Below, in pieces: positions 20,433-30,518 of a stretch of DNA of 64,000 bases (the first letter of the stretch is position 1; every line of letters starts with the position of its first letter). The notes under the pieces were generated by a model. That model saw nothing but the letters and a program-made list of their open reading frames with translations. It was not told the DNA's origin and made no database searches. The DNA is from Prosthecobacter sp. SYSU 5D2. GTDB taxonomy: Bacteria; Verrucomicrobiota; Verrucomicrobiia; Verrucomicrobiales; Verrucomicrobiaceae. The stretch lies in assembly GCF_039655865.1 (NCBI RefSeq), contig NZ_JBBYXL010000006.1, positions 310,001-374,000 on the forward strand, written 5' to 3'. A program made the translations under genes and the position numbers.

Positions 20433-23400
20433 CTAGTTTGCAGCTTCGATGAAGCTGATCAGATCCGCCATCTCCTGGACGCTCATCCCCTGCTCCAGCC
20501 CCTCTGGCATGAGGCTCTGGCCAATGGAATTGCTGCCCTGGATGTTGGAGCGCTGCACGGTGACCTCGGCCCCGCCCATCATTTTGAGGGTCATGCTGCT
20601 GGCATCGTCCTTGGCAATGATTCCGCTGAGAGTCTGGCCGTCCTTGGTATTGACCGTGTAGGCGATGTATTGCGAGGCCACTTCCTTGTGCGGCTCCAGA
20701 ATGGCAGTGAGGAGGCCGTCTTTGCCCCGGGTTTTGACGGTGGTCATGTTCGGACCGACTTCGATCCCCTGCCCGTTGGCGACATGGCAGGCAAAACAAC
20801 GCGCCATGAAGACCAGATTGCCTGCGGCAGCATCGCCTTTCAGGCTGAGGGCGGGCTGGAATTTCTTCACCACTTCCTCGCGAGACGGCGGGATGACGGA
20901 GGCGAGGACAGTCTTGGCCAAGGCGGCCACCTTGTCGTTTTTATGCTTGGCCAAAGCCTGGACCTGGGAGGCACTCAGATCTGCCGGTTTCAGGACGGGC
21001 GTATCCGCCCCCATGGATTCCAGAAGAGCAAGCACGCTGTCATCGCGTGCCATCAGGGCGGCCAGCGCGGTTTCACGGGCCTTGGGCTTCAGGCCGGGCC
21101 AGACCGTGAGGCAGGTCTTGGCGAGATCCTTTGTCCCCAGGTCCTTCAATGACTTCACGGCGGCAGCCTGAATGGCTTCGGACTGGTCGGGTTTCAAACA
21201 GGCTTCCACCGCCGCCAGGGCCTGGTCTTTGGTGGCCAGGGAAAGCAGGCTGAGCGCTTCAAGCCTGGCTCGTTCATCGGCGATGCTGTCTTGAGCGGTC
21301 AAGGAGGCTTGGGTAAAAACTGCATTGAGTTTTCCTTCCTTGTCCACCTTTGCCAGAGTGGTACCCGCACGGCGGAGACCAGTGCCCAGAGCGGCGAGTT
21401 TGTCTGACTGAAGCTGACGGTGTTCAAGCGTCCACAATTGAAGAAGCTCCTGAATTTCTGCGCTTTCATTGCGTGCGCCGATGATGTTGATCAAAGCGAG
21501 CTGGAGTTCATGGGGATCGCCTACTTTTTGTGGGTTTTGCTCCATTTCCTTTTGCAGTCTAAAGGCGTGTTCAGGCCGACCGCTGGCAATCGCTTCAACC
21601 ATCCTTACTTCTCGGGAAGACCGCCGCAGGGAACTCACGGCTTTATGACCCGATGGCAGACCTGCCAAGGTGAGTGCCAGTTGATAAGCGAGCCTCGGCG
21701 AAGAAGATTTGAATGAACGATCGGTGATCACCTTGATCACCTCAGCGGGGTATTGCACATCCGGGTAAACTGTGTCCAACAGTGCTAGTGCTCGCTCTTT
21801 CACGAACGTGTCCTTGTCTTTAAGCGCTGTAAGAAGCACGGCTTCATTAAGCTGGCCAATCGACTGAAGGGCCTGCAGGACATGTAGCTTGGCCACGGGA
21901 TCCGTGTCACCTTCCATCATCGCCTGAAGAGGCAGCATGGAAGCCATGGGTTTCCTTTCATACAGTAGCCGGGTGGCGGTATCGCGATGCCAGCCATTCG
22001 GGTGGGCGAGGGTCTGGACGAGTTCCTCGGTGGAGGCTTTGTCCAGCGCTGGACGGGTGCGATAACCGACGGGTTTGTCATCAGTGTTTTTGACGATGCG
22101 CCAGATGCGGCCACGGTCATTGCCGCTGTTCAGGTCCAGATGTTTTTTGATTTCATCCGGCACGGACCAGGGGTGCTCGATGATCTCGCGATACATGTCG
22201 CAGATGTAGAGATGGCCGTCGGGGGCATTGGCGAAGTTGACGACACGGGTCCAGGTATCATGACTGGCGGCAAATTCGATACCATGTTCGTCCGATGGAC
22301 GCTCTCCGATCAGATCAATGCCGTTCTCGGCATAACGGATGATTTTGCGATGAACCAGCTGGCCGCCGGCATCGCCGGTGAAGCTGTTGTTCAGAAACTC
22401 AGGGCCGTACGCATCGCCACGATAGATGGTGGTGCCGGTGGCTCCGGTGAAGTAACCGCTGACGCGGCCGCCGCCTTCCACAGCTCCCTTCACAACGCCG
22501 GCGATGCGCCACCGTGTGCGGATGATGCGCCAGGGCTCATCCGGACTGAGGCGGAAGACTTCCGCCGCGCCGCCATCCACCGCGATGCTCTTGCGGGCCG
22601 ACGGCATGGAGTAGTAGGGATTGCGGGCGGCATATTTGTCATCATAGACCCAGTATTGAAGGTGGTCGGAGTTTGAGCAGCCGAACTTGCGACCGTAGTT
22701 GTCATAGCTCATGCCATACTGGGCACCGCCGCCTTCCAGGCCGAATTCATGAGTGAGCGGATCAAACCAGAAGTCCTTGCCGCCCAGCTCCTGCTCAGGC
22801 AGATCAGGCCGCACAAGGCATTTGATCTTCCCCCGGTTGCCGCCGCCTGCGAGAATATGCACGCGGTTGTCCTGCCCCCATTGGAAGCTGTTCATGAGGC
22901 CCTGCACGTTGAGCATTTTCAAACCGGTGCCAAAGCCCGTATAGATCTTTTCACGGACTTCGGCTTTGCCGTCATCATCCTTGTCCTCAAAGCGCCAGAT
23001 ATCAGGCGTGGCACCGACATAGAGACCGCCATTGGCCCAAGTGAGACCGGTGGGCCAGGGAAGATTGTCGGCAAAAACCTGGCTGGTTTCAAAAAAGCCA
23101 TCGCCATCCTTGTCCTCCAACATGGAAATGCGGCCCAGATGCGGGGTGACATCGCGCATCTCCGAGTAATCAATCATCTCACACACAAACATGCGACCTC
23201 GCTCGTCAAAACAGACAGCGATGGGATCACGCACAAGAGGCTCATTGGCGACGAGTTCCAGCTTGAAGCCTTTTTTCACCTGCCAGGTCTGGACGGCATC
23301 CTTCGGCTCCACCGCCGGATAACGCGGCAGTTCCTTGGCGGGATCCACCATGGCCTCATTATTGGTTGGTCCATACGCGGCGGCATAAGTGGTCTTGGAT

Positions 23401-23477
23401 TTGATGCCGCCTGCCGGAGGGGGCTCTGCCCATATGAAACCAGTGAGAGCAAGGAAGAATGGGAGGAGATGCTTCAT
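20433..23477 (-). CDS. PVC-type membrane-bound dehydrogenase / HEAT / haem-binding c-type cytochrome
   Basis: About 1014 residues with a signal peptide (MKHLLPFFLALTGFIWA). The first about 480 residues form a beta-propeller-like region of the kind labelled putative membrane-bound dehydrogenase in PVC genomes (FKLELVANEPLVRDPIAVCF, DNLPWPTGLTWANGGLYVG). A helical HEAT-like region (about 500-880) follows. The C-terminal domain has one haem c motif, CFACH, then the planctomycete-type haem-binding block (NGQGIEVGPNMTTV, VNTKDGQTLSGIIA). It is probably a periplasmic electron-transfer or sugar-oxidising protein. The ATG at 23477 is chosen; one 15 nt upstream (23492) also gives a plausible signal peptide. 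It is divergent from the lipid cluster. Confidence 0.88.
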   Translation of the reverse strand: MKHLLPFFLALTGFIWAEPPPAGGIKSKTTYAAAYGPTNNEAMVDPAKELPRYPAVEPKDAVQTWQVKKGFKLELVANEPLVRDPIAVCFDERGRMFVCEMIDYSEMRDVTPHLGRISMLEDKDGDGFFETSQVFADNLPWPTGLTWANGGLYVGATPDIWRFEDKDDDGKAEVREKIYTGFGTGLKMLNVQGLMNSFQWGQDNRVHILAGGGNRGKIKCLVRPDLPEQELGGKDFWFDPLTHEFGLEGGGAQYGMSYDNYGRKFGCSNSDHLQYWVYDDKYAARNPYYSMPSARKSIAVDGGAAEVFRLSPDEPWRIIRTRWRIAGVVKGAVEGGGRVSGYFTGATGTTIYRGDAYGPEFLNNSFTGDAGGQLVHRKIIRYAENGIDLIGERPSDEHGIEFAASHDTWTRVVNFANAPDGHLYICDMYREIIEHPWSVPDEIKKHLDLNSGNDRGRIWRIVKNTDDKPVGYRTRPALDKASTEELVQTLAHPNGWHRDTATRLLYERKPMASMLPLQAMMEGDTDPVAKLHVLQALQSIGQLNEAVLLTALKDKDTFVKERALALLDTVYPDVQYPAEVIKVITDRSFKSSSPRLAYQLALTLAGLPSGHKAVSSLRRSSREVRMVEAIASGRPEHAFRLQKEMEQNPQKVGDPHELQLALINIIGARNESAEIQELLQLWTLEHRQLQSDKLAALGTGLRRAGTTLAKVDKEGKLNAVFTQASLTAQDSIADERARLEALSLLSLATKDQALAAVEACLKPDQSEAIQAAAVKSLKDLGTKDLAKTCLTVWPGLKPKARETALAALMARDDSVLALLESMGADTPVLKPADLSASQVQALAKHKNDKVAALAKTVLASVIPPSREEVVKKFQPALSLKGDAAAGNLVFMARCFACHVANGQGIEVGPNMTTVKTRGKDGLLTAILEPHKEVASQYIAYTVNTKDGQTLSGIIAKDDASSMTLKMMGGAEVTVQRSNIQGSNSIGQSLMPEGLEQGMSVQEMADLISFIEAAN

Positions 23478-23634
23478 GTGGGGAGACTGCATTAAACCAA
23501 CGCGCTGAGGAGGACCGGGTCTCGCCTGCGGATGACAGGTACAGGTACTTTTATGGCAGAGATCTGAAACAAGATGAATCCGCAAAGACGCGGCAGGCGA
23601 AGAACTCAGCAGCTTCGACAAATTTTCCACAGTC

Positions 23635-24912
23635 ATGCCAAAATTTAAATTATGCATTATCGGAACCGGTATTTCCGGACTGGGATGCGCGTATTTATTA
23701 GACAAAAAATTCGACATAACATTGTACGAAGCTGGAGATTACATAGGAGGCCATACCAACACGGTCACCGTGACGGAAGACGGCAAGGAACTTCCCGTGG
23801 ATACAGGGTTCATGGTCTTCAACCACCAGACCTATCCCCTGCTCTGCCGTCTGTTTAAAGAATTGGGCGTCGAAACCAAGCGGACGGACATGTCATTCAG
23901 CCTGCGGCATCTGCCCACGGGCTATGAATATAATGGCAAAAATCTGGATACGATTTTCGGACAGCGCAGCAACCTGCTGAGCCCGCGCTTTTGGAAGTTC
24001 CTGCTGAAGATCAAACGTTTCAATGAGGAGACGGTGGCCGCCATGAACGATCCCCGCTTTGAGCACATGACACTGCGTGAGTATGCGCAGGCCCGCGGAT
24101 ACGGGCAGGATTTTCTGGACCTCTACATCATTCCCATGGGCAGCGCGGTGTGGTCAACTCCGCCGGAACTGATGCTGGAATTCCCTGCGCGCACATTGAT
24201 GCACTTTTGGTTCAACCATGGGTTTCTCGGCATGGAGACCCGGCATCCCTGGTGGACGGTAGTGGATGGCTCGCGCCAGTATGTGCGCAAGATCGTGGCC
24301 CCTTTCCGTGACCGCATTCATCTGAACACACCGGTGGAGAGGATCGAGCGCAGGGATGGCTGCGCCGTTGTTTATGCTCGTGGCCGTGAGCCGGAAATCT
24401 TTGACAAGGTGATCCTGGCCACCCATGCCCCCACCTCCTTAAAAATGCTGGCTGATCCAACGCCGCTGGAGCAGGAGCTGCTGCCGCTTTTCAAATACCA
24501 GGCCAATGTGGCGACGCTGCATACGGATGACCGGTTCATGCCCAAAACACGCAAATGCTGGGCTTCATGGAATTATCACATCGAATTCGACAAGAACGGA
24601 ATCATCCAGCCGAGCACTCATTACTGGATGAATTTGCTGCAAGGGGTCTCTGAGAAAACAAACTACTTTGTCAGCATCAACGGAGAGGATGCCATTGATC
24701 CCGCCAAAGTGATCCGGCGAATTTCGTATGAGCATCCTCTGTTTGATGTGAAGGCCACGGCAGCTCAAAAGCGGCTGCCTGAGCTGAACCGGATCTCCAA
24801 AGACCAGACGACGTATTATTGCGGAGCCTGGTTCCGCTACGGCTTTCATGAAGACGGCTTCATGTCTGCGGTCAACCTGTGTCGCGATCTGCTGGGGGAG
24901 GAGCCTTGGTGA
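23635..24912 (+). CDS. FAD-dependent amine-oxidase-like oxidoreductase (COG2907 type)
   Basis: The 425-residue protein opens with an FAD dinucleotide-binding motif (LCIIGTGISGLGCAYLL, residues 6-22) and GDYIGGHTNTVTV, then YPLLCRLFKELGVE. It matches the predicted NAD/FAD-binding protein family COG2907 of the flavin amine oxidase/desaturase superfamily. It is the first gene of a cluster with DUF1365, CFA synthase and DUF1295 genes. In that context it probably oxidises or desaturates a lipid acyl chain; alphaproteobacterial UfaD in furan fatty acid synthesis is a possible functional precedent. The first about 100 nt are AT-rich relative to the rest. No good ribosome-binding site is visible before the ATG. 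Confidence 0.88.
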   Translation: MPKFKLCIIGTGISGLGCAYLLDKKFDITLYEAGDYIGGHTNTVTVTEDGKELPVDTGFMVFNHQTYPLLCRLFKELGVETKRTDMSFSLRHLPTGYEYNGKNLDTIFGQRSNLLSPRFWKFLLKIKRFNEETVAAMNDPRFEHMTLREYAQARGYGQDFLDLYIIPMGSAVWSTPPELMLEFPARTLMHFWFNHGFLGMETRHPWWTVVDGSRQYVRKIVAPFRDRIHLNTPVERIERRDGCAVVYARGREPEIFDKVILATHAPTSLKMLADPTPLEQELLPLFKYQANVATLHTDDRFMPKTRKCWASWNYHIEFDKNGIIQPSTHYWMNLLQGVSEKTNYFVSINGEDAIDPAKVIRRISYEHPLFDVKATAAQKRLPELNRISKDQTTYYCGAWFRYGFHEDGFMSAVNLCRDLLGEEPW

Positions 24913-25706
24913 ATACGCAATCCGCCATCTATGAATGCGAGGTGATGCACCACCGGCTGAAGCCGAAGACGCACCGTTTCATCTATCGGTTGTTTTATCT
25001 CTGGCTGGACCTGGATGAACTGGACGGCCTGGACGGCAAACTGCGTCTGTTTAAGCGCAATCGTCGCGCGCTGTTCTCCTTCCATGATGCGGATCACATC
25101 CTGCGGGACAGCCAGGAGACCAAGGCGAATGTCTTGCAGATCATCCATGAGGCAGGTGTGGACACGTCACACATCGCCATGGTGCGGCTGCTGACCTTTC
25201 CACGCGTGCTCGGATACATCTTCAATCCGGTCTGCTTTTACTACTGCTATGATGCAAGCGGCGCACCTGTGTGCGCGGTGGCTGAAGTGACCAACACCTT
25301 CCATGAGCAGAAGCCTTATGTGCTGAAGACGCAGGAAGGAGACCGGTTCCGCCTGATCACGCCCAAGCATTTTTATGTCTCCCCCTTTTTCGGGTTGGAG
25401 CTGAATTTCGATTTCAAACTTCGGCTGCCGTCTGAGCACCTTGAGATTCATGTGGATGATCGCGAAGGTGACGAACGGGTGATGCTGACAAGTCTGACAG
25501 GCAGCCGCCGTGAACTGACTGATGCGGCTTTGCTGGTCTGCGCCTTGAAGTATCCGCTGCTGACGCTCCGCGTGATCTTTCTCATCCACTGGCATGCCCT
25601 CCGCCTTTGGATGAAAGGCCTGCACGTGTACAAAAAGGCCGCCGATCCGGACCTGCAAAAAGGGGTCTTCCGCCCTCATCGCTCCATCTCTCCCATCAAG
25701 CCATGA
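24909..25706 (+). CDS. DUF1365 family protein
   Basis: About 265 residues. IYECEVMHHRLKPKTHRFIY, FYLWLDLDELDGL, RLLTFPRVLGYIFNPVCFYY and CAVAEVTNTFHEQKPYVL are conserved blocks of DUF1365 (COG3496). The biochemical role is unknown, but the family is habitually encoded between a COG2907 flavoprotein and a CFA-type methyltransferase, as here. The GTG at 24909 is chosen: it overlaps the preceding stop (GTGA) and has a strong GGGGGAGGAG ribosome-binding site at 24894-24903. An upstream ATG (24879) would lie inside the previous gene. Confidence 0.88.
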   Translation: MNTQSAIYECEVMHHRLKPKTHRFIYRLFYLWLDLDELDGLDGKLRLFKRNRRALFSFHDADHILRDSQETKANVLQIIHEAGVDTSHIAMVRLLTFPRVLGYIFNPVCFYYCYDASGAPVCAVAEVTNTFHEQKPYVLKTQEGDRFRLITPKHFYVSPFFGLELNFDFKLRLPSEHLEIHVDDREGDERVMLTSLTGSRRELTDAALLVCALKYPLLTLRVIFLIHWHALRLWMKGLHVYKKAADPDLQKGVFRPHRSISPIKP

Positions 25707-26998
25707 ACCCCACTACGCTCAGCCTCGAAGATACCGACGTCGTCGCCACACTCAGCGCAACCGCCACCTCCCGGCGGGCAGGTTTTTATGAAAAGCTGGT
25801 GATGAGCACGCTGAGAAGCTTTCCCGTCGGCGGGCTGCGAATGGCCCTGCCGGACGGGCGTGAACATCGCCTGGGAAATGCTGATGGAATGCCCCCACTG
25901 GAGATGCGGGTGCACAACCTGGAGTTCTTCCGCCAGTGCGCGCTGTTTGGAAACATCGGCTTTGGAGAATCCTACGTGCATGGAGACTGGGATGCGGAAG
26001 ATGTGGCAGGCGTGATCACCTGGTTCATCCAGAACATTCACGCCACCCAAGGCAGCCGGGCTTCCTCCACCCGGTTGCGGGGAATGAACCTGCTCAAGTT
26101 CTACAACCGTGCCCTGCACCTGCTGCGGCCGAACAGCCTGAAGACAAGCCGACGGAACATCGCCGAACATTATGACCTGGGGAATGACTTTTATTCCCTG
26201 TGGCTGGACAGGACGATGACGTATTCTGCCGCCCGGTTTGAGCATCCCGGGCAGCCTTTGGAAGAGGCACAATTTTCCAAGTATGAGGCGCTCTGCCAAA
26301 AGCTGGAACTCAAAGCAACGGACCACGTGCTGGAGATTGGCTGCGGGTGGGGTGGATTTTGCACCCATGCCGCACGGGAATATGGCTGCCGGGTCACCGC
26401 TGTAACGATCTCCCAAGAACAGCACAAATATGCCACGGAACGGGTGAAGAAGGAAGGTCTTGACCATCTGGTGGAAATCCGGCTTCAGGATTACCGGCTG
26501 GTGACCGGGCAGTTTGACAAGATCGCTTCCATTGAAATGCTGGAGGCTGTGGGCGAAGCCTATGTGAACGGATACTTTGCCAAGTGTCATGAGCTCCTGA
26601 AGCCGGAAGGATTGCTGGCCTTTCAGGTCATCACCGTTCCCGACTGCCGCTACAAAAACCTTGTTCAGGGGGTGGACTGGATCCAGAAACACATCTTCCC
26701 TGGCTCGCTGCTGCTTAGCATGGCCCGGGTGAATGAGGCCATCAACAAAACCGGCGACCTGTTTCTCCACGGCCTGGAGGACCTTGGAGCCGGTTATGCC
26801 AAAACGCTCCGTCTTTGGTTCGAGCGGTTCAACGAGCGCCTGGATGAGGTGAAAGCGCTGGGATTTGACGAGACCTTCATTCGCAAGTGGAACTACTACC
26901 TGCAATACTGTGAAGCGGCCTTTGCCACCCGAAACATCAGTGTGGTGCAGGCGGTCTATACCCGGCCTAACAATGTCCTGCTTCACCGCACCTGGTAA
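25703..26998 (+). CDS. cfa: Cyclopropane-fatty-acyl-phospholipid synthase
   Basis: The 431-residue SAM-dependent enzyme has NIAEHYDLGNDFYSLWLD, TMTYSAARF, the SAM motif LEIGCGWGGFCTHAA, FDKIASIEMLEAVG and the ending WNYYLQYCEAAFATRNISVV. All are typical of the Cfa/mycolic-acid cyclopropane synthase family (COG2230). It transfers a methylene or methyl group from SAM to the double bond of phospholipid acyl chains at the inner membrane. The about 100-residue N-terminal extension (LPDGREHRLGNADG onward) is the substrate-binding domain also seen in E. coli Cfa. It overlaps the DUF1365 gene by ATGA, so translation is coupled. Confidence 0.92.
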   Translation: MNPTTLSLEDTDVVATLSATATSRRAGFYEKLVMSTLRSFPVGGLRMALPDGREHRLGNADGMPPLEMRVHNLEFFRQCALFGNIGFGESYVHGDWDAEDVAGVITWFIQNIHATQGSRASSTRLRGMNLLKFYNRALHLLRPNSLKTSRRNIAEHYDLGNDFYSLWLDRTMTYSAARFEHPGQPLEEAQFSKYEALCQKLELKATDHVLEIGCGWGGFCTHAAREYGCRVTAVTISQEQHKYATERVKKEGLDHLVEIRLQDYRLVTGQFDKIASIEMLEAVGEAYVNGYFAKCHELLKPEGLLAFQVITVPDCRYKNLVQGVDWIQKHIFPGSLLLSMARVNEAINKTGDLFLHGLEDLGAGYAKTLRLWFERFNERLDEVKALGFDETFIRKWNYYLQYCEAAFATRNISVVQAVYTRPNNVLLHRTW

Positions 26999-27028
26999 TG
27001 AACAGATATCCTAAAACAGTGGAAAACC

Positions 27029-27364
27029 ATGATTCTTACCCTGCGCATCTTCTTCATCATCGTGCTGCTTTCCATGCTGGCGGTCACCACCTGGGCCAGC
27101 AAGCAGATCCCCTTGTGGAAGATACCGTATGAGACGTGGACCCATCCCTGGTGGATCGCAACGCTGTTTGATGCGTATTGGGGCTTCCTGACGTTTTATT
27201 GCTGGATCGTTTATAAAGAGGTGTCCTGGATTGCCCGTGGAGCATGGTTCATCGCGGTGCTGTTGCTGGGGAATATCGCCATGGCGGTGTATGCGCTGAT
27301 CCAGCTCTTCAAAGTACCGCTGAATAGCAGGGCTGAAGATGTGCTGCTTAGGAGAAACCCATGA
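27029..27364 (+). CDS. DUF1475 family small membrane protein
   Basis: The 111-residue protein has three hydrophobic segments (residues about 4-22, 45-65, 68-95). THPWWIATLFDAYWGFLTFY and LLLGNIAMAVYALIQLFKVP match my recollection of the DUF1475 pattern. Its function is unknown. It starts 30 nt after cfa and overlaps the next gene by ATGA, so it belongs to the same operon and probably acts at the membrane with the lipid-modifying enzymes. Confidence 0.72.
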   Translation: MILTLRIFFIIVLLSMLAVTTWASKQIPLWKIPYETWTHPWWIATLFDAYWGFLTFYCWIVYKEVSWIARGAWFIAVLLLGNIAMAVYALIQLFKVPLNSRAEDVLLRRNP

Positions 27365-27855
27365 AGGAGAAGAAGTCCAGCCTCTGGCGCCGTTGGGTGA
27401 TAGATCCCATCATCCAGCAACTGACGCAGGGAACGAGCCCCTCAAAGATCGCACAGGCCATCGCCTATGGCATTGCGCTGGGCATCTTCCCCATCATTGG
27501 ATCCAATACGCTGCTGACCCTGCTGGCCGGTATTCCGCTGAAGCTGAACCAGCCCATTTTACAGGCCTTCAAAACCCTGGCCTATCCTCTGCAATGGGCG
27601 CTGATCCTGGGCTTTTACCGGGCCGGGGAATGGCTGTTCAATGCACCTCATGTGAGCATCCACGTCCCCAGCATGATTGAAAGATTCTTTGCCGAGCCTG
27701 GGCCGTTTTTCAGGGATTATGGAATGACGGCCCTGTATGGCATCGCCGTCTGGTGCCTTGTGGCCCCGCTGCTGCTGGCCGTCATTTATTACAGCACCCG
27801 ACCGCTCATCGAGCACCTGGCTGCCAGGATTTCGTTACGCCCTTCCACGCCATGA
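27361..27855 (+). CDS. DUF2062 domain membrane protein
   Basis: The 164-residue protein has the DUF2062 signature: GTSPSKIAQAIAYGIALGIF, PIIGSNTLLTLLAGIPLKLNQ and AYPLQWALILGFYRAGEWLF. A last hydrophobic helix follows (IAVWCLVAPLLLAVIYYSTR). DUF2062 proteins are small polytopic proteins of unknown function, often encoded near glycosyltransferases or lipid enzymes. It overlaps the genes on both sides by ATGA and has an AGGAG ribosome-binding site at 27350-27354. Confidence 0.85.
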   Translation: MKEKKSSLWRRWVIDPIIQQLTQGTSPSKIAQAIAYGIALGIFPIIGSNTLLTLLAGIPLKLNQPILQAFKTLAYPLQWALILGFYRAGEWLFNAPHVSIHVPSMIERFFAEPGPFFRDYGMTALYGIAVWCLVAPLLLAVIYYSTRPLIEHLAARISLRPSTP

Positions 27856-28625
27856 TTCTGACCGTCGCCGCACTCATTCTACTGGCTCTGTTTCTGCTAA
27901 CCTGGCGGCTGAGCATCCGGCTGGACAATTACAGCTTTGTGGATGTGACCTGGTCCCTGGCGTTTGCGCCGGTGGCTCTATGGTATGCGCTGGCCCATGA
28001 TGGCTGGATGCCAAGACGGGCGGTCATCGGCGTGTTGGTGGCGGCCTGGAGCCTGCGACTGGGCCTGCACCTGTGGAAACGTGTGGCAAGCCATCATCCC
28101 AAGGAGGACGTGCGCTACGCAGTGCTGAGAGAAAAATGGAAGGTCAACCGCGAGCGGGCCTTCCTTTGGTTCTTCCTGATGCAAGGCGCACTGGTGTGGC
28201 TGCTGATGCTGCCTGTGCATCTCATTGCCCAGCAAGAAGCGATGGAGTTTCATCCTTTGGAATATGCCGGACTTGCTCTTTGGTTGCTGGCCCTGACTGG
28301 CGAAGGACTGGCGGATGCACAACTGGCCAAATTCAAAAAGACCAACAGAGATCCGAATGCCATCTGCCAGGCAGGACTGTGGCGCTACAGCCGGCATCCG
28401 AATTACTTTTTCCAGTCTTTGCTCTGGTGGGGCCTGTTTCTGATGGCTCTGCCGGCACCGTGGGGCTGGACGGCCATCGTGGCCCCGCTGGCCATGCTGC
28501 ATTTCCTGCTGAATGTGACGGGCATTCCGCTGACCGAGAAGCTTTCCATCGAGAAACGCGGGGATGTTTACCGGGAGTATCAGCGCACGACCAGCGCCTT
28601 TGTCCCCTGGTTTCCGAAACGCTGA
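27852..28625 (+). CDS. DUF1295 family protein (steroid 5-alpha-reductase-like)
   Basis: The 257-residue polytopic membrane protein ends in a C-terminal block typical of DUF1295/COG3752 and of the steroid 5-alpha-reductase/isoprenylcysteine methyltransferase fold: ICQAGLWRYSRHPNYFFQSL then LNVTGIPLTEK and YREYQRTTSAFVPWFPK. Eukaryotic relatives are NADPH-dependent reductases of C=C bonds in steroids or polyprenols. The bacterial substrate is unknown; next to CFA enzymes an acyl-chain reduction is a reasonable guess. The ATG at 27852 overlaps the DUF2062 stop. Confidence 0.88.
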   Translation: MILTVAALILLALFLLTWRLSIRLDNYSFVDVTWSLAFAPVALWYALAHDGWMPRRAVIGVLVAAWSLRLGLHLWKRVASHHPKEDVRYAVLREKWKVNRERAFLWFFLMQGALVWLLMLPVHLIAQQEAMEFHPLEYAGLALWLLALTGEGLADAQLAKFKKTNRDPNAICQAGLWRYSRHPNYFFQSLLWWGLFLMALPAPWGWTAIVAPLAMLHFLLNVTGIPLTEKLSIEKRGDVYREYQRTTSAFVPWFPKR

Positions 28626-28666
28626 ATCCAGGCGGTGACGCCACACACAATTGTACACTTTCTGTT

Positions 28667-29707
28667 ATGCTCAACCTTAACGATCTCCTCGCCAAAGACA
28701 TCCTGCCGGATGCGGCCATCCGCTTCGGCATCCGCCAGCGGCTGGCCAATACGCTGCGCAAGCACAAGCAGCCCACCGTGGAAGCGCAAAAGGCCGCGCT
28801 GATAAAGCACATCGAAAGCCTGAAAAACAGCCCTGTGGCCATCGCTACAGATGAGGCCAATGAGCAGCACTATGAGGTGCCAACCCGCTTTTACCAGCTC
28901 TGCCTGGGCAGGCACCTGAAGTACAGCAGCGGCTACTGGCCGGAGCCAGGAACCACCTTTGATGAATCTGAAGCCATCATGCTGAGGATGACCTGTGAGC
29001 GGGCTGAGCTGGCCAATGGGCAGCGCATCCTGGAACTGGGCTGCGGGTGGGGTTCCCTGTCCCTCTGGATGGCGGAGCATTATCCAGGCGCCCAAATCAC
29101 CAGCGTCTCCAATTCACGCACCCAAAAGGAGTTCATTGATTCGGAAGCGGAAAAGCGCGGCCTGAAAAACCTGACCGTCATCACGGCCAACATGATCCAC
29201 TTTGAGGGTGTGGGAGAAGGCGTCTTCGACCGTTGTGTGTCCGTGGAAATGTTTGAGCACATGAAGAACTACCAGGAGCTGCTGCGGCGGATTTCCACCT
29301 GGCTGAAACCTGGCGGCAAACTCTTTGTCCACATCTTCACGCACCGCGAATATGCCTACCATTATGAGGTCACCAGCGACGATGACTGGATGGCCAAATA
29401 CTTCTTTACCGGCGGGCAGATGCCTTCCGATGATCTGCTGCTGTATTTCCAGGATCATCTGAAAATCGAGCAGCACTGGTGCGTCAGCGGCATGCATTAC
29501 AGCAAGACCTCCGAGGCCTGGCTGGGGAAGATGGATGCCAACAAGGAGGAGATCATGCAGCTGTTTGCTGCCACCTATGGCAAGGACCAGGCCGTGAAGT
29601 GGTGGGCCTACTGGCGCATCTTTTATATGGCCTGCGCGGAGCTGTGGGGATACCGCGACGGCGAAGAATGGATCGTCTCCCACTACCGGTTTGCCAAACC
29701 TGAATGA
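28667..29707 (+). CDS. SAM-dependent methyltransferase, CFA / coclaurine-N-methyltransferase-like
   Basis: About 346 residues. EQHYEVPTRFYQLCLGRHLK replaces the usual HYDLGN motif. The SAM motif is ILELGCGWGSLSLWMAEHYP, followed by ITSVSNSRTQKEFI, VSVEMFEHMKNY and FTHREYAYHYE. These resemble the CFA-related clade that includes plant coclaurine N-methyltransferases, not classical Cfa. It lacks the long N-terminal domain of the first cfa gene and should act on a different or soluble substrate. It lies 41 nt after the DUF1295 gene. Two CFA-superfamily enzymes in one operon is unusual and suggests sequential modification steps. Confidence 0.87.
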   Translation: MLNLNDLLAKDILPDAAIRFGIRQRLANTLRKHKQPTVEAQKAALIKHIESLKNSPVAIATDEANEQHYEVPTRFYQLCLGRHLKYSSGYWPEPGTTFDESEAIMLRMTCERAELANGQRILELGCGWGSLSLWMAEHYPGAQITSVSNSRTQKEFIDSEAEKRGLKNLTVITANMIHFEGVGEGVFDRCVSVEMFEHMKNYQELLRRISTWLKPGGKLFVHIFTHREYAYHYEVTSDDDWMAKYFFTGGQMPSDDLLLYFQDHLKIEQHWCVSGMHYSKTSEAWLGKMDANKEEIMQLFAATYGKDQAVKWWAYWRIFYMACAELWGYRDGEEWIVSHYRFAKPE

Positions 29708-29710
29708 CCC

Positions 29711-30454
29711 ATGAAAACATACCTTTTGTTAGGCTCACTCCTCCTTGCGCTGAATGTTTACGGCAACGTGGACGACCTCATCCGCCAGGGGGATACCTAC
29801 GACGCAAAGTTCCAGCCTGATGAGGCGCTGAAACACTACCTGCCTGCGGAAAAACGACGTCCGGGCGATGCGGCCCTGATGGTGAAAATCGCCCGGCAGT
29901 ATGTCTTCCGGATGGATGAACTTTCATCCAGTGCGGACAAAATGGCCTCTGCAAAAATGGCCCTGTCCTATGCTGAGAAGGCGGTGAAGGCAGCACCGGC
30001 AACAAGCGACCCGCATCTCTCCATCGCCATCGTCTATGGCAAGATGACCCCGCTCCTGGGCAACAAGGAGAAGATTGAAGTTTCCAGGAAAATCAAAGAA
30101 GCTGCGGAGAAAGCGGTGAAGCTGAACCCCAGGGATGACTACGCCTGGCATCTGCTGGGCCGGTGGCACCAGGCACTGGCCGGCATGGGCAGCCTGACGC
30201 GCGGCATTGCAAGGCTGGTCTATGGAGAGCTGCCTGCCGCCTCGAATGAAGAAGCCGTAAAGTGTTTTGAAAAAGCCCTTTCACTGAACCCCAGACGGCT
30301 GATCCATCACATCGAGCTAGGCCGGACCTTTGCGCAGATGGGACGAACTGAAGAGGCCCGCCAGGCAATCAACAAAGGTCTGGCCATGCCTGACCAGGAA
30401 AAGGATGATCCGGAAACGAAACGCCGCGGAAGGGCGGCATTGGATGCACTCTAA
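29711..30454 (+). CDS. Periplasmic TPR protein
   Basis: The 247-residue protein starts with a signal peptide (MKTYLLLGSLLLALNVYGN). Helical repeats follow: YDAKFQPDEALKHYLPAEKR, MALSYAEKAVKAAPATSDPH, then AAEKAVKLNPRDDYAWHLLG and AVKCFEKALSLNPRRLIHHI. The last three have the A-L-x-x-N/D-P spacing of tetratricopeptide repeats. It begins 3 nt after the methyltransferase stop, so it closes the operon. A partner-binding or scaffold role in the periplasm is inferred. Confidence 0.82.
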   Translation: MKTYLLLGSLLLALNVYGNVDDLIRQGDTYDAKFQPDEALKHYLPAEKRRPGDAALMVKIARQYVFRMDELSSSADKMASAKMALSYAEKAVKAAPATSDPHLSIAIVYGKMTPLLGNKEKIEVSRKIKEAAEKAVKLNPRDDYAWHLLGRWHQALAGMGSLTRGIARLVYGELPAASNEEAVKCFEKALSLNPRRLIHHIELGRTFAQMGRTEEARQAINKGLAMPDQEKDDPETKRRGRAALDAL

Positions 30455-30469
30455 GGTCACACATTAATA

Positions 30470-30518
30470 GAACAGGCCGCACAAAAGGTGCGGCCTGTTC
30501 ACTGTGTGATTTTATTTT
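30470..30518 (+). terminator. Strong rho-independent terminator closing the lipid cluster
   Basis: GAACAGGCCGCAC (30470-30482) pairs perfectly with GTGCGGCCTGTTC (30488-30500) around a 5-nt loop. Flanking CACAC and GTGTG can extend the stem, and a T-rich stretch (GATTTTATTTTAC) follows. It sits in the 62-nt gap between the convergent TPR and glgP genes. The T-run favours termination of the plus-strand operon, but the stem could also serve glgP. Confidence 0.85.

Follow-up and report, generated by a model that had tools for sequence, protein, structure and literature searches.

A 64,000-nucleotide stretch of the genome of Prosthecobacter sp. SYSU 5D2 (hereafter the window) contains, at positions 23635-30454, eight tightly packed, co-directional open reading frames (ORFs) on the + strand. 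Judged from their sequences, these genes very likely form an operon for a complete mono- and dimethyl-furan pathway, by which the acyl chains of membrane phospholipids would be turned into methylated furan fatty acids. The original prediction had proposed a multi-step branched, methylated or furan lipid and left the product as unknown. The methylated and furan parts of that proposal were borne out and could be narrowed to the UfaM-UfaD-UfaO-FufM pathway by homology, a tree and an active-site signature; to leave the product as unknown now appears too cautious, as mono- and dimethyl-furan acyl chains are a specific prediction.

Formation of monomethyl furan acids by UfaM, UfaD and UfaO, and addition of a second methyl group by FufM, have been shown in Rhodobacter sphaeroides and Rhodopseudomonas palustris (PMC7380195). 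Homology to those enzymes suggests four steps for the window. The UfaM-type protein would methylate a cis-monounsaturated acyl chain and shift its double bond, the UfaD-type protein would desaturate this product to a methyl-branched conjugated diene, the UfaO-type protein (DUF1365), with O2, would close the furan ring to give the monomethyl furan acid, and the FufM-type protein would add a second ring methyl to give the dimethyl acid. A fifth protein, DUF1295, may be an NAD(P)H-dependent integral-membrane reductase whose substrates are either intermediates of the pathway or furan lipid that has been oxidised. An unsaturated substrate is plausible, as the window's genome has three matches to fatty acid desaturase families over the cut-off.

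Rhodopseudomonas genomes were reached via a light-harvesting protein, and R. palustris strain XCP served as the comparison genome. The published loci are RPA2569-2571 and, separately, RPA0924, and in vitro the FufM of strain CGA009 transfers a methyl group to a furan fatty acid (PMC7380195). Because the two strains differ, orthologues were assigned by position and similarity, and the equivalents of RPA0923 and RPA0924 were identified in XCP by similarity and gene order. With the window's second CMAS-family protein as query, three CMAS-family genes were found in XCP. The first adjoins DUF1365 and flavoprotein genes, matching the UfaM-UfaO-UfaD set, and the one matching FufM lies on a different contig, in keeping with the separate RPA numbers. 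The third was taken, by elimination, for RPA3082, the deletion of which caused no significant change (PMC7380195). All four enzyme types of the Rhodobacter/Rhodopseudomonas pathway (PMC7380195) have full-length or near full-length homologues in the window, and the methylase groups and the UfaM active-site signature are likewise shared. The window differs from R. palustris in holding all four in one operon, whereas the R. palustris FufM gene stands elsewhere, preceded by DUF1295.

The first CMAS-family gene (CFA1; 25703..26998, +), annotated as Cfa, encodes a protein 40.1% identical over 379 aa to that at the UfaM position in R. palustris. We aligned 97 CMAS proteins and built a tree, omitting one CFA1 row of at most 250 aa (L042 is absent from the tree) and trimming fused CFA1 proteins to their last 470 residues. 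CFA1 belonged to a UfaM group of 53 rows (support 88/82); the branch of the broken gene at L044 is very long, and those of L054 and L064 are long as well. At positions 236, 240 and 266 (Escherichia coli numbering) the alignment showed E236/A240/Q266 in both window CFA1 and R. palustris UfaM, and G236/H240/H266 in E. coli Cfa as well as in the third CMAS protein of R. palustris. Among 55 CFA1 rows, E236 was present in 52, A240 in 52 and Q266 in 53, and the two with His266 are Cfa-type Rhodopseudomonas paralogues. The tree group and this signature indicate that CFA1 is a UfaM-type acyl-chain methylase dependent on S-adenosylmethionine (SAM), not the Cfa proper it had been taken for.

The first gene of the operon (23635..24912, +) encodes a flavin adenine dinucleotide (FAD) protein of the amine-oxidase type (PF01593, E 1e-25) that is 38.1% identical over 430 aa to the protein at the UfaD position in strain XCP. 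The partner oxidoreductase of 10-methylstearate synthesis belongs to a FAD-binding (oxidase-type) domain family; the window protein matches PF01593, PF13450 and PF01266 only and is not of that kind. It is followed by the DUF1365 gene (24909..25706, +; GTG start, GTGA overlap with the FAD gene), the product of which matches PF07103 (E 7.7e-79) and is 42.1% identical over 240 aa to the protein at the UfaO position in XCP. A FAD homologue was present in 49 of 52 other loci fetched around DUF1365 in the window's phylum. Similarity and adjacency thus point to a UfaD-type desaturase next to a UfaO-type protein, predicted to carry out the O2-dependent furan-forming step. A single open frame spans DUF1365 and CFA1 in nine of the phylum loci (L066, L067, L069-L072, L079, L081 and L082). 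With 884, 1129 and 1179 codons from stop to stop, three of the nine far exceed the others in length and could hold a further domain. No solved structure was matched in a profile search with DUF1365.

The second CMAS-family protein (CFA2; 28667..29707, +) was 47.5% identical over 345 aa to the FufM-position protein of R. palustris and shared with it a clade of 41 rows (support 100/100). What had been an unexplained second methyltransferase has, therefore, a known counterpart, and CFA2 is probably a SAM-dependent methylase of the FufM type; its proposed role is to attach the second ring methyl of the dimethyl product. Its best PDB match was a plant coclaurine N-methyltransferase (286 bits, compared to 93 bits for E. 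coli Cfa). This likeness fits FufM: LIME1 of Arabidopsis, reported to be 37.9% identical to FufM, is a methyltransferase of lipid droplets (PMC10940516), and Chlamydomonas CFA2 is itself listed as a coclaurine N-methyltransferase (PMC4067076). A purely alkaloid-type N-methyltransferase was rejected on the R. palustris match and the FufM clade. One further CMAS-family match exceeded the cut-off in the window's genome (G000:C3:134252-134893; loci L003 and L098), with 75.7 bits and 26% identity to CFA2 within the matched part.

Co-occurrence was scored in 240 genomes of the phylum, with limits of 1e-10 for UfaO, 1e-40 for FufM, 1e-15 for DUF1295 and 1e-40 for UfaM-like genes. UfaO was found in 53 genomes (spanning 18 family labels), FufM in 42, DUF1295 in 48 and a UfaM-like gene in 58. 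A Pfam search for DUF1295 matched 59 genomes, namely the same 48 and 11 with only matches below 30 bits, which were not counted. All 53 UfaO genomes had a UfaM-like gene, and UfaO was present in 42 of 42 FufM genomes and in 47 of 48 DUF1295 genomes. The distribution is patchy, since UfaO, FufM and UfaM were all absent at these limits from G231, a genome of the window's own family. The order FAD-DUF1365-CFA1-DUF1475-DUF1295-CFA2 recurred on one strand in 13 of the 52 loci, and given these recurrences the arrangement is more than chance; DUF2062 was present in 10 of the 13 and the TPR gene in 9, with the FAD gene 1.4 and 2.7 kb away in two. Loci in which CFA1 is not beside FAD-DUF1365 had, by similarity, a UfaM-like gene elsewhere in the genome.

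The DUF1295 gene (27852..28625, +) encodes a multi-spanning membrane protein (PF06966, E 8.1e-63), 35.2% identical to the R. palustris DUF1295 protein. In the window's phylum it lay directly upstream of FufM in 27 of the 48 genomes, of UfaM in 13 and of neither in 8, and among UfaO genomes it was present in 40 of 42 with FufM compared to 7 of 11 without (p 0.013). Similarly, in the order of R. palustris, which belongs to a different phylum (249 genomes), 19 of the 23 genomes with FufM had DUF1295 immediately before it. The R. palustris gene overlaps the start of FufM and, by this position, corresponds to RPA0923. A deletion of RPA0923 is listed as made; the main text mentions the gene among its strains and plasmids and gives no lipid result in those places (PMC7380195).

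Of the 51 genomes with DUF1295 in that order, 31 lacked a FufM match, and 20 of these were examined. UfaD and UfaO were near DUF1295 in nine (L160, L161, L164, L167-L170, L172 and L178), seven of which also had UfaM and one of which (L178) had a partial FufM match at a contig end. In all nine, DUF1295 was downstream of a pair of genes for an extracytoplasmic function (ECF) sigma factor and ChrR (separated from the pair by about 1 kb in two), and UfaD-UfaO lay on the opposite strand to this row. DUF2177 was nearby in seven of the nine, another possible furan-lipid partner. One further genome had DUF1295 with DUF2177 only, and the remaining 10 carried a divergent DUF1295, with pathway genes absent from the surrounding 6 kb or so. 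DUF1295 thus appears to comprise a subfamily that is part of the furan-lipid system and others outside it. A role as partner of FufM alone was ruled out, because DUF1295 also stands before UfaM (13/48) and behind ChrR without a FufM match.

Genomics thus associates DUF1295 with the furan lipids, and the likeness to other families hints at its chemistry. The window protein alone matched Steroid_dh best among neighbouring families (1.5e-7), ahead of PEMT (5.2e-6) and ICMT (0.0014). In contrast, a 28-member DUF1295 profile matched AtTam46 (1.5e-5) and the ICMT 4a2n (2e-5) better than the steroid 5-alpha-reductases 7c83 (0.001) and 7bw1 (0.006), and a sterol reductase only weakly (0.18). With a methylase gene directly downstream in 40 of the 48 genomes, the profile's preference for 4a2n raises the possibility that DUF1295 is no reductase and instead belongs to the methyltransferases of the ICMT/PEMT type or helps the methylases. 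We consider this a serious alternative, if the less probable one. The invariant stretch S-R-H-P-N-Y-F contains P-N-Y, as in the 5-alpha-reductase match, in place of the P-M-Y of ICMT. This P-N-Y aligns with 7c83, as does an upstream Asp, while ICMT and AtTam46 score better in the profile. Furthermore, DUF1295 also occurs behind ChrR at loci where the next gene is not a methylase gene. The conserved P-N-Y inclines us towards a reductase, and we propose, with confidence about evenly balanced, that DUF1295 is a membrane reductase serving furan lipids.

A different product for the whole cluster is improbable. The place of CFA1 in the Cfa superfamily, the resemblance of DUF1295 to reductases and the FAD oxidoreductase and methyltransferase pair published for 10-methylstearate (PMC5660069) might suggest that the product is a cyclopropane fatty acid or a saturated one with a mid-chain methyl branch, made by way of a methylene intermediate that the flavoprotein or DUF1295 reduces. 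The catalytic bicarbonate in cyclopropane synthase is bound by Glu239, His266 and Tyr317 (PMC11387697); CFA1 keeps the Glu and the Tyr and has Gln in place of His266, and for this and its UfaM signature the cyclopropane synthase reading was rejected. The flavoprotein is of the amine-oxidase type and 38% identical to the UfaD-position protein, furan formation is the sole published role that we found for DUF1365/UfaO, and not one UfaO genome among the 240 was without a UfaM-like gene, all of which speaks against such a product. Still less likely is a cluster joining two unrelated functions, in which CFA2, whose best solved relatives are plant N-methyltransferases, N-methylates an amine (a lipid head group or small molecule): CFA2 groups with a FufM whose CGA009 counterpart acts on a furan fatty acid (PMC7380195), no FufM genome of the 240 is without UfaO, and LIME1, the plant relative of FufM, is found on lipid droplets as are UfaM/UfaD-like and UfaO-like proteins (PMC10940516).

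Several observations weigh against the furan assignment or limit it. Identities of 35-48% allow room for a changed substrate. The Cfa group of the tree, with only three rows (95/89), consists of E. coli Cfa and two partners on long branches that may be falsely joined. The UfaM signature was checked in the fetched loci, and UfaM-like genes elsewhere in the genomes were assigned by similarity alone. Fisher p values of 5e-37 or lower for UfaO with UfaM, FufM and DUF1295 ignore shared ancestry. FufM was missing from 11 of the 53 UfaO genomes and DUF1295 from 6 (two of which have FufM). DUF1295, as seen in the 31 of 51 genomes without a FufM match and the 10 with DUF1295 far from pathway genes, is not exclusive to the pathway. 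At L042, on plasmid pRL12 of R. johnstonii, UfaD, DUF1295 and FufM are kept and UfaO is missing, with UfaM in fragments at the locus. Single-sequence structure predictions, given as predicted local distance difference test (pLDDT) and template-modelling (pTM) scores, were too poor for use for both DUF1365 (pLDDT 42.6, pTM 0.36) and DUF1295 (pLDDT 55.6, pTM 0.34). A full-text literature search listed no paper on furan fatty acids in this group of bacteria. Finally, the best match to ChrR in the window's genome scored 44.5 bits against a cut-off of 124.5, covered model positions 106-208 and lay on another contig.

This last result bears on regulation. Flavoprotein-DUF1365-Cfa sets were, as predicted, found in other phyla, and several Proteobacterial ones do stand beside ECF sigma/anti-sigma (ChrR-type) genes. 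Singlet-oxygen control found no support in this organism: a ChrR-type regulon in its genome was rejected because the best match is far under the family cut-off, and the lack of a ChrR over that cut-off is a further difference from Rhodobacter and Rhodopseudomonas. A tblastn search with alphaproteobacterial queries gave no ChrR- or ECF-like match at 1e-6 in the phylum loci L046-L097.

Plasmid clusters of the Proteobacteria Acinetobacter, Burkholderia, Cupriavidus, Rhizobium tropici and Caballeronia resemble the window in grouping FAD, DUF1365, Cfa-like, DUF1295 and FufM-like genes; in each of the five, DUF1295 immediately precedes FufM. They differ in that various ones carry lipocalin, chalcone isomerase-like, DUF2878, photolyase and ECF sigma/anti-sigma genes and none has a DUF1475 match. 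Lipocalin, chalcone isomerase-like and DUF2256 genes lie near the furan cluster on the Acinetobacter (L038), Burkholderia (L039) and Cupriavidus (L040) plasmids, and a cryptochrome/photolyase gene is present in the L038 and L040 clusters; the three neighbourhoods suggest a light-stress island. Decay was seen on an Azospirillum thermophilum plasmid (L044), where CFA1 is in pieces, as well as at L042.

The same enzyme types occur in eukaryotes. In Arabidopsis they are UFAMD1, UFAO1 and FUFM1 (LIME1), found on lipid droplets (PMC10940516), and in Chlamydomonas the genes for CFA1, CFA2/CPLD27, a DUF1365, a DUF1295 and a DUF2177 protein need SAK1 for induction by singlet oxygen (PMC4067076), so that DUF1295 and DUF2177 are co-induced with the set. 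Unlike the window, these eukaryotes have no operon, Arabidopsis has a single protein that matches UfaM as well as UfaD, and function is inferred from homology in both (PMC10940516, PMC4067076). Among the papers listed by a full-text literature search on DUF1295, only the Chlamydomonas study appears to bear on this pathway, and a scan of viral contigs with DUF1295 found no relative.

The three remaining genes of the operon, DUF1475, DUF2062 and the TPR gene, are additions relative to the Rhodobacter/Rhodopseudomonas pathway. DUF1475 (27029..27364, +) encodes a small membrane protein matched by PF07343 (E 8.2e-9) at residues 39-104 of 111 only; homologues were present in 15 of the 52 phylum loci, and a search of plasmids gave no match. 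DUF2062 (27361..27855, +; ATGA overlaps on both sides) encodes a membrane protein (PF09835, E 6.6e-11), occurs mostly in the same loci as DUF1475; 3 of the 13 clusters that are complete in other respects lack it. The last gene (29711..30454, +) encodes a TPR protein, best matched by PF21033; among the 52 loci, nine have the TPR gene after CFA2. It had been called periplasmic: the TPR part was confirmed by Pfam models, and the location rests on a signal-like N-terminal stretch seen by eye. Patchy occurrence makes all three look like lineage-specific accessories, and our guess is that they organise the enzymes at the membrane. The suggestion of lipid export found no support, since no recognised transporter family was among the eight proteins in the Pfam search.

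The layout of the operon agreed exactly with the original prediction, with four exact 4-base start/stop overlaps (ATGA or GTGA) and gaps of exactly 30, 41 and 3 nt, and the domain families named for the eight genes were confirmed by Pfam (PF01593, PF07103, PF02353 twice, PF07343, PF09835, PF06966 and TPR models). The strong terminator placed at its end is also real: a hairpin at 30456..30510 (no strand) had a folding energy of -34.8 kcal/mol (z -9.5; 0 of 200 shuffles equally stable), although a simple terminator scan did not list it. It sits between convergent genes and may serve both as a probable bidirectional terminator. Upstream, a block at 23530..23557 (+) was near-identical in L046 and recognisable in L047, the two nearest relatives, and not so in L048 or L049, and it could be a promoter or operator. 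The divergent ORF at 20433-23717, as listed, overlaps the start of the FAD gene; a signal-like stretch further inside it suggests a later true start, which would leave a divergent promoter region.

Furan fatty acids are rare antioxidant membrane lipids, and the published demonstrations of the whole pathway that we found are from two alphaproteobacteria. The type of pathway is already known, and the window's operon is very probably a variant of it, in another phylum, with all four enzymes together in one compact unit whose gene order is kept in 13 other genomes of that phylum. DUF1295 emerges as an overlooked partner that tracks the pathway in two phyla, adjoins FufM, UfaM or ChrR, and in a green alga responds to singlet oxygen together with the other genes (PMC4067076). 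As a deletion of RPA0923 has already been listed (PMC7380195), its role is directly testable. One idea, which we put forward as a long shot, is that DUF1295 closes an antioxidant cycle of furan lipids. Singlet oxygen opens a furan acyl chain to a reactive ene-dione, and a saturated 1,4-diketone can lose water to form a furan; reduction of the ene-dione to the diketone with NAD(P)H by DUF1295, as a relative of the 5-alpha-reductases that act on enones, would allow the ring to reclose. If this were true, furan lipids would be regenerable and not sacrificial quenchers of singlet oxygen in bacteria, algae and plants.

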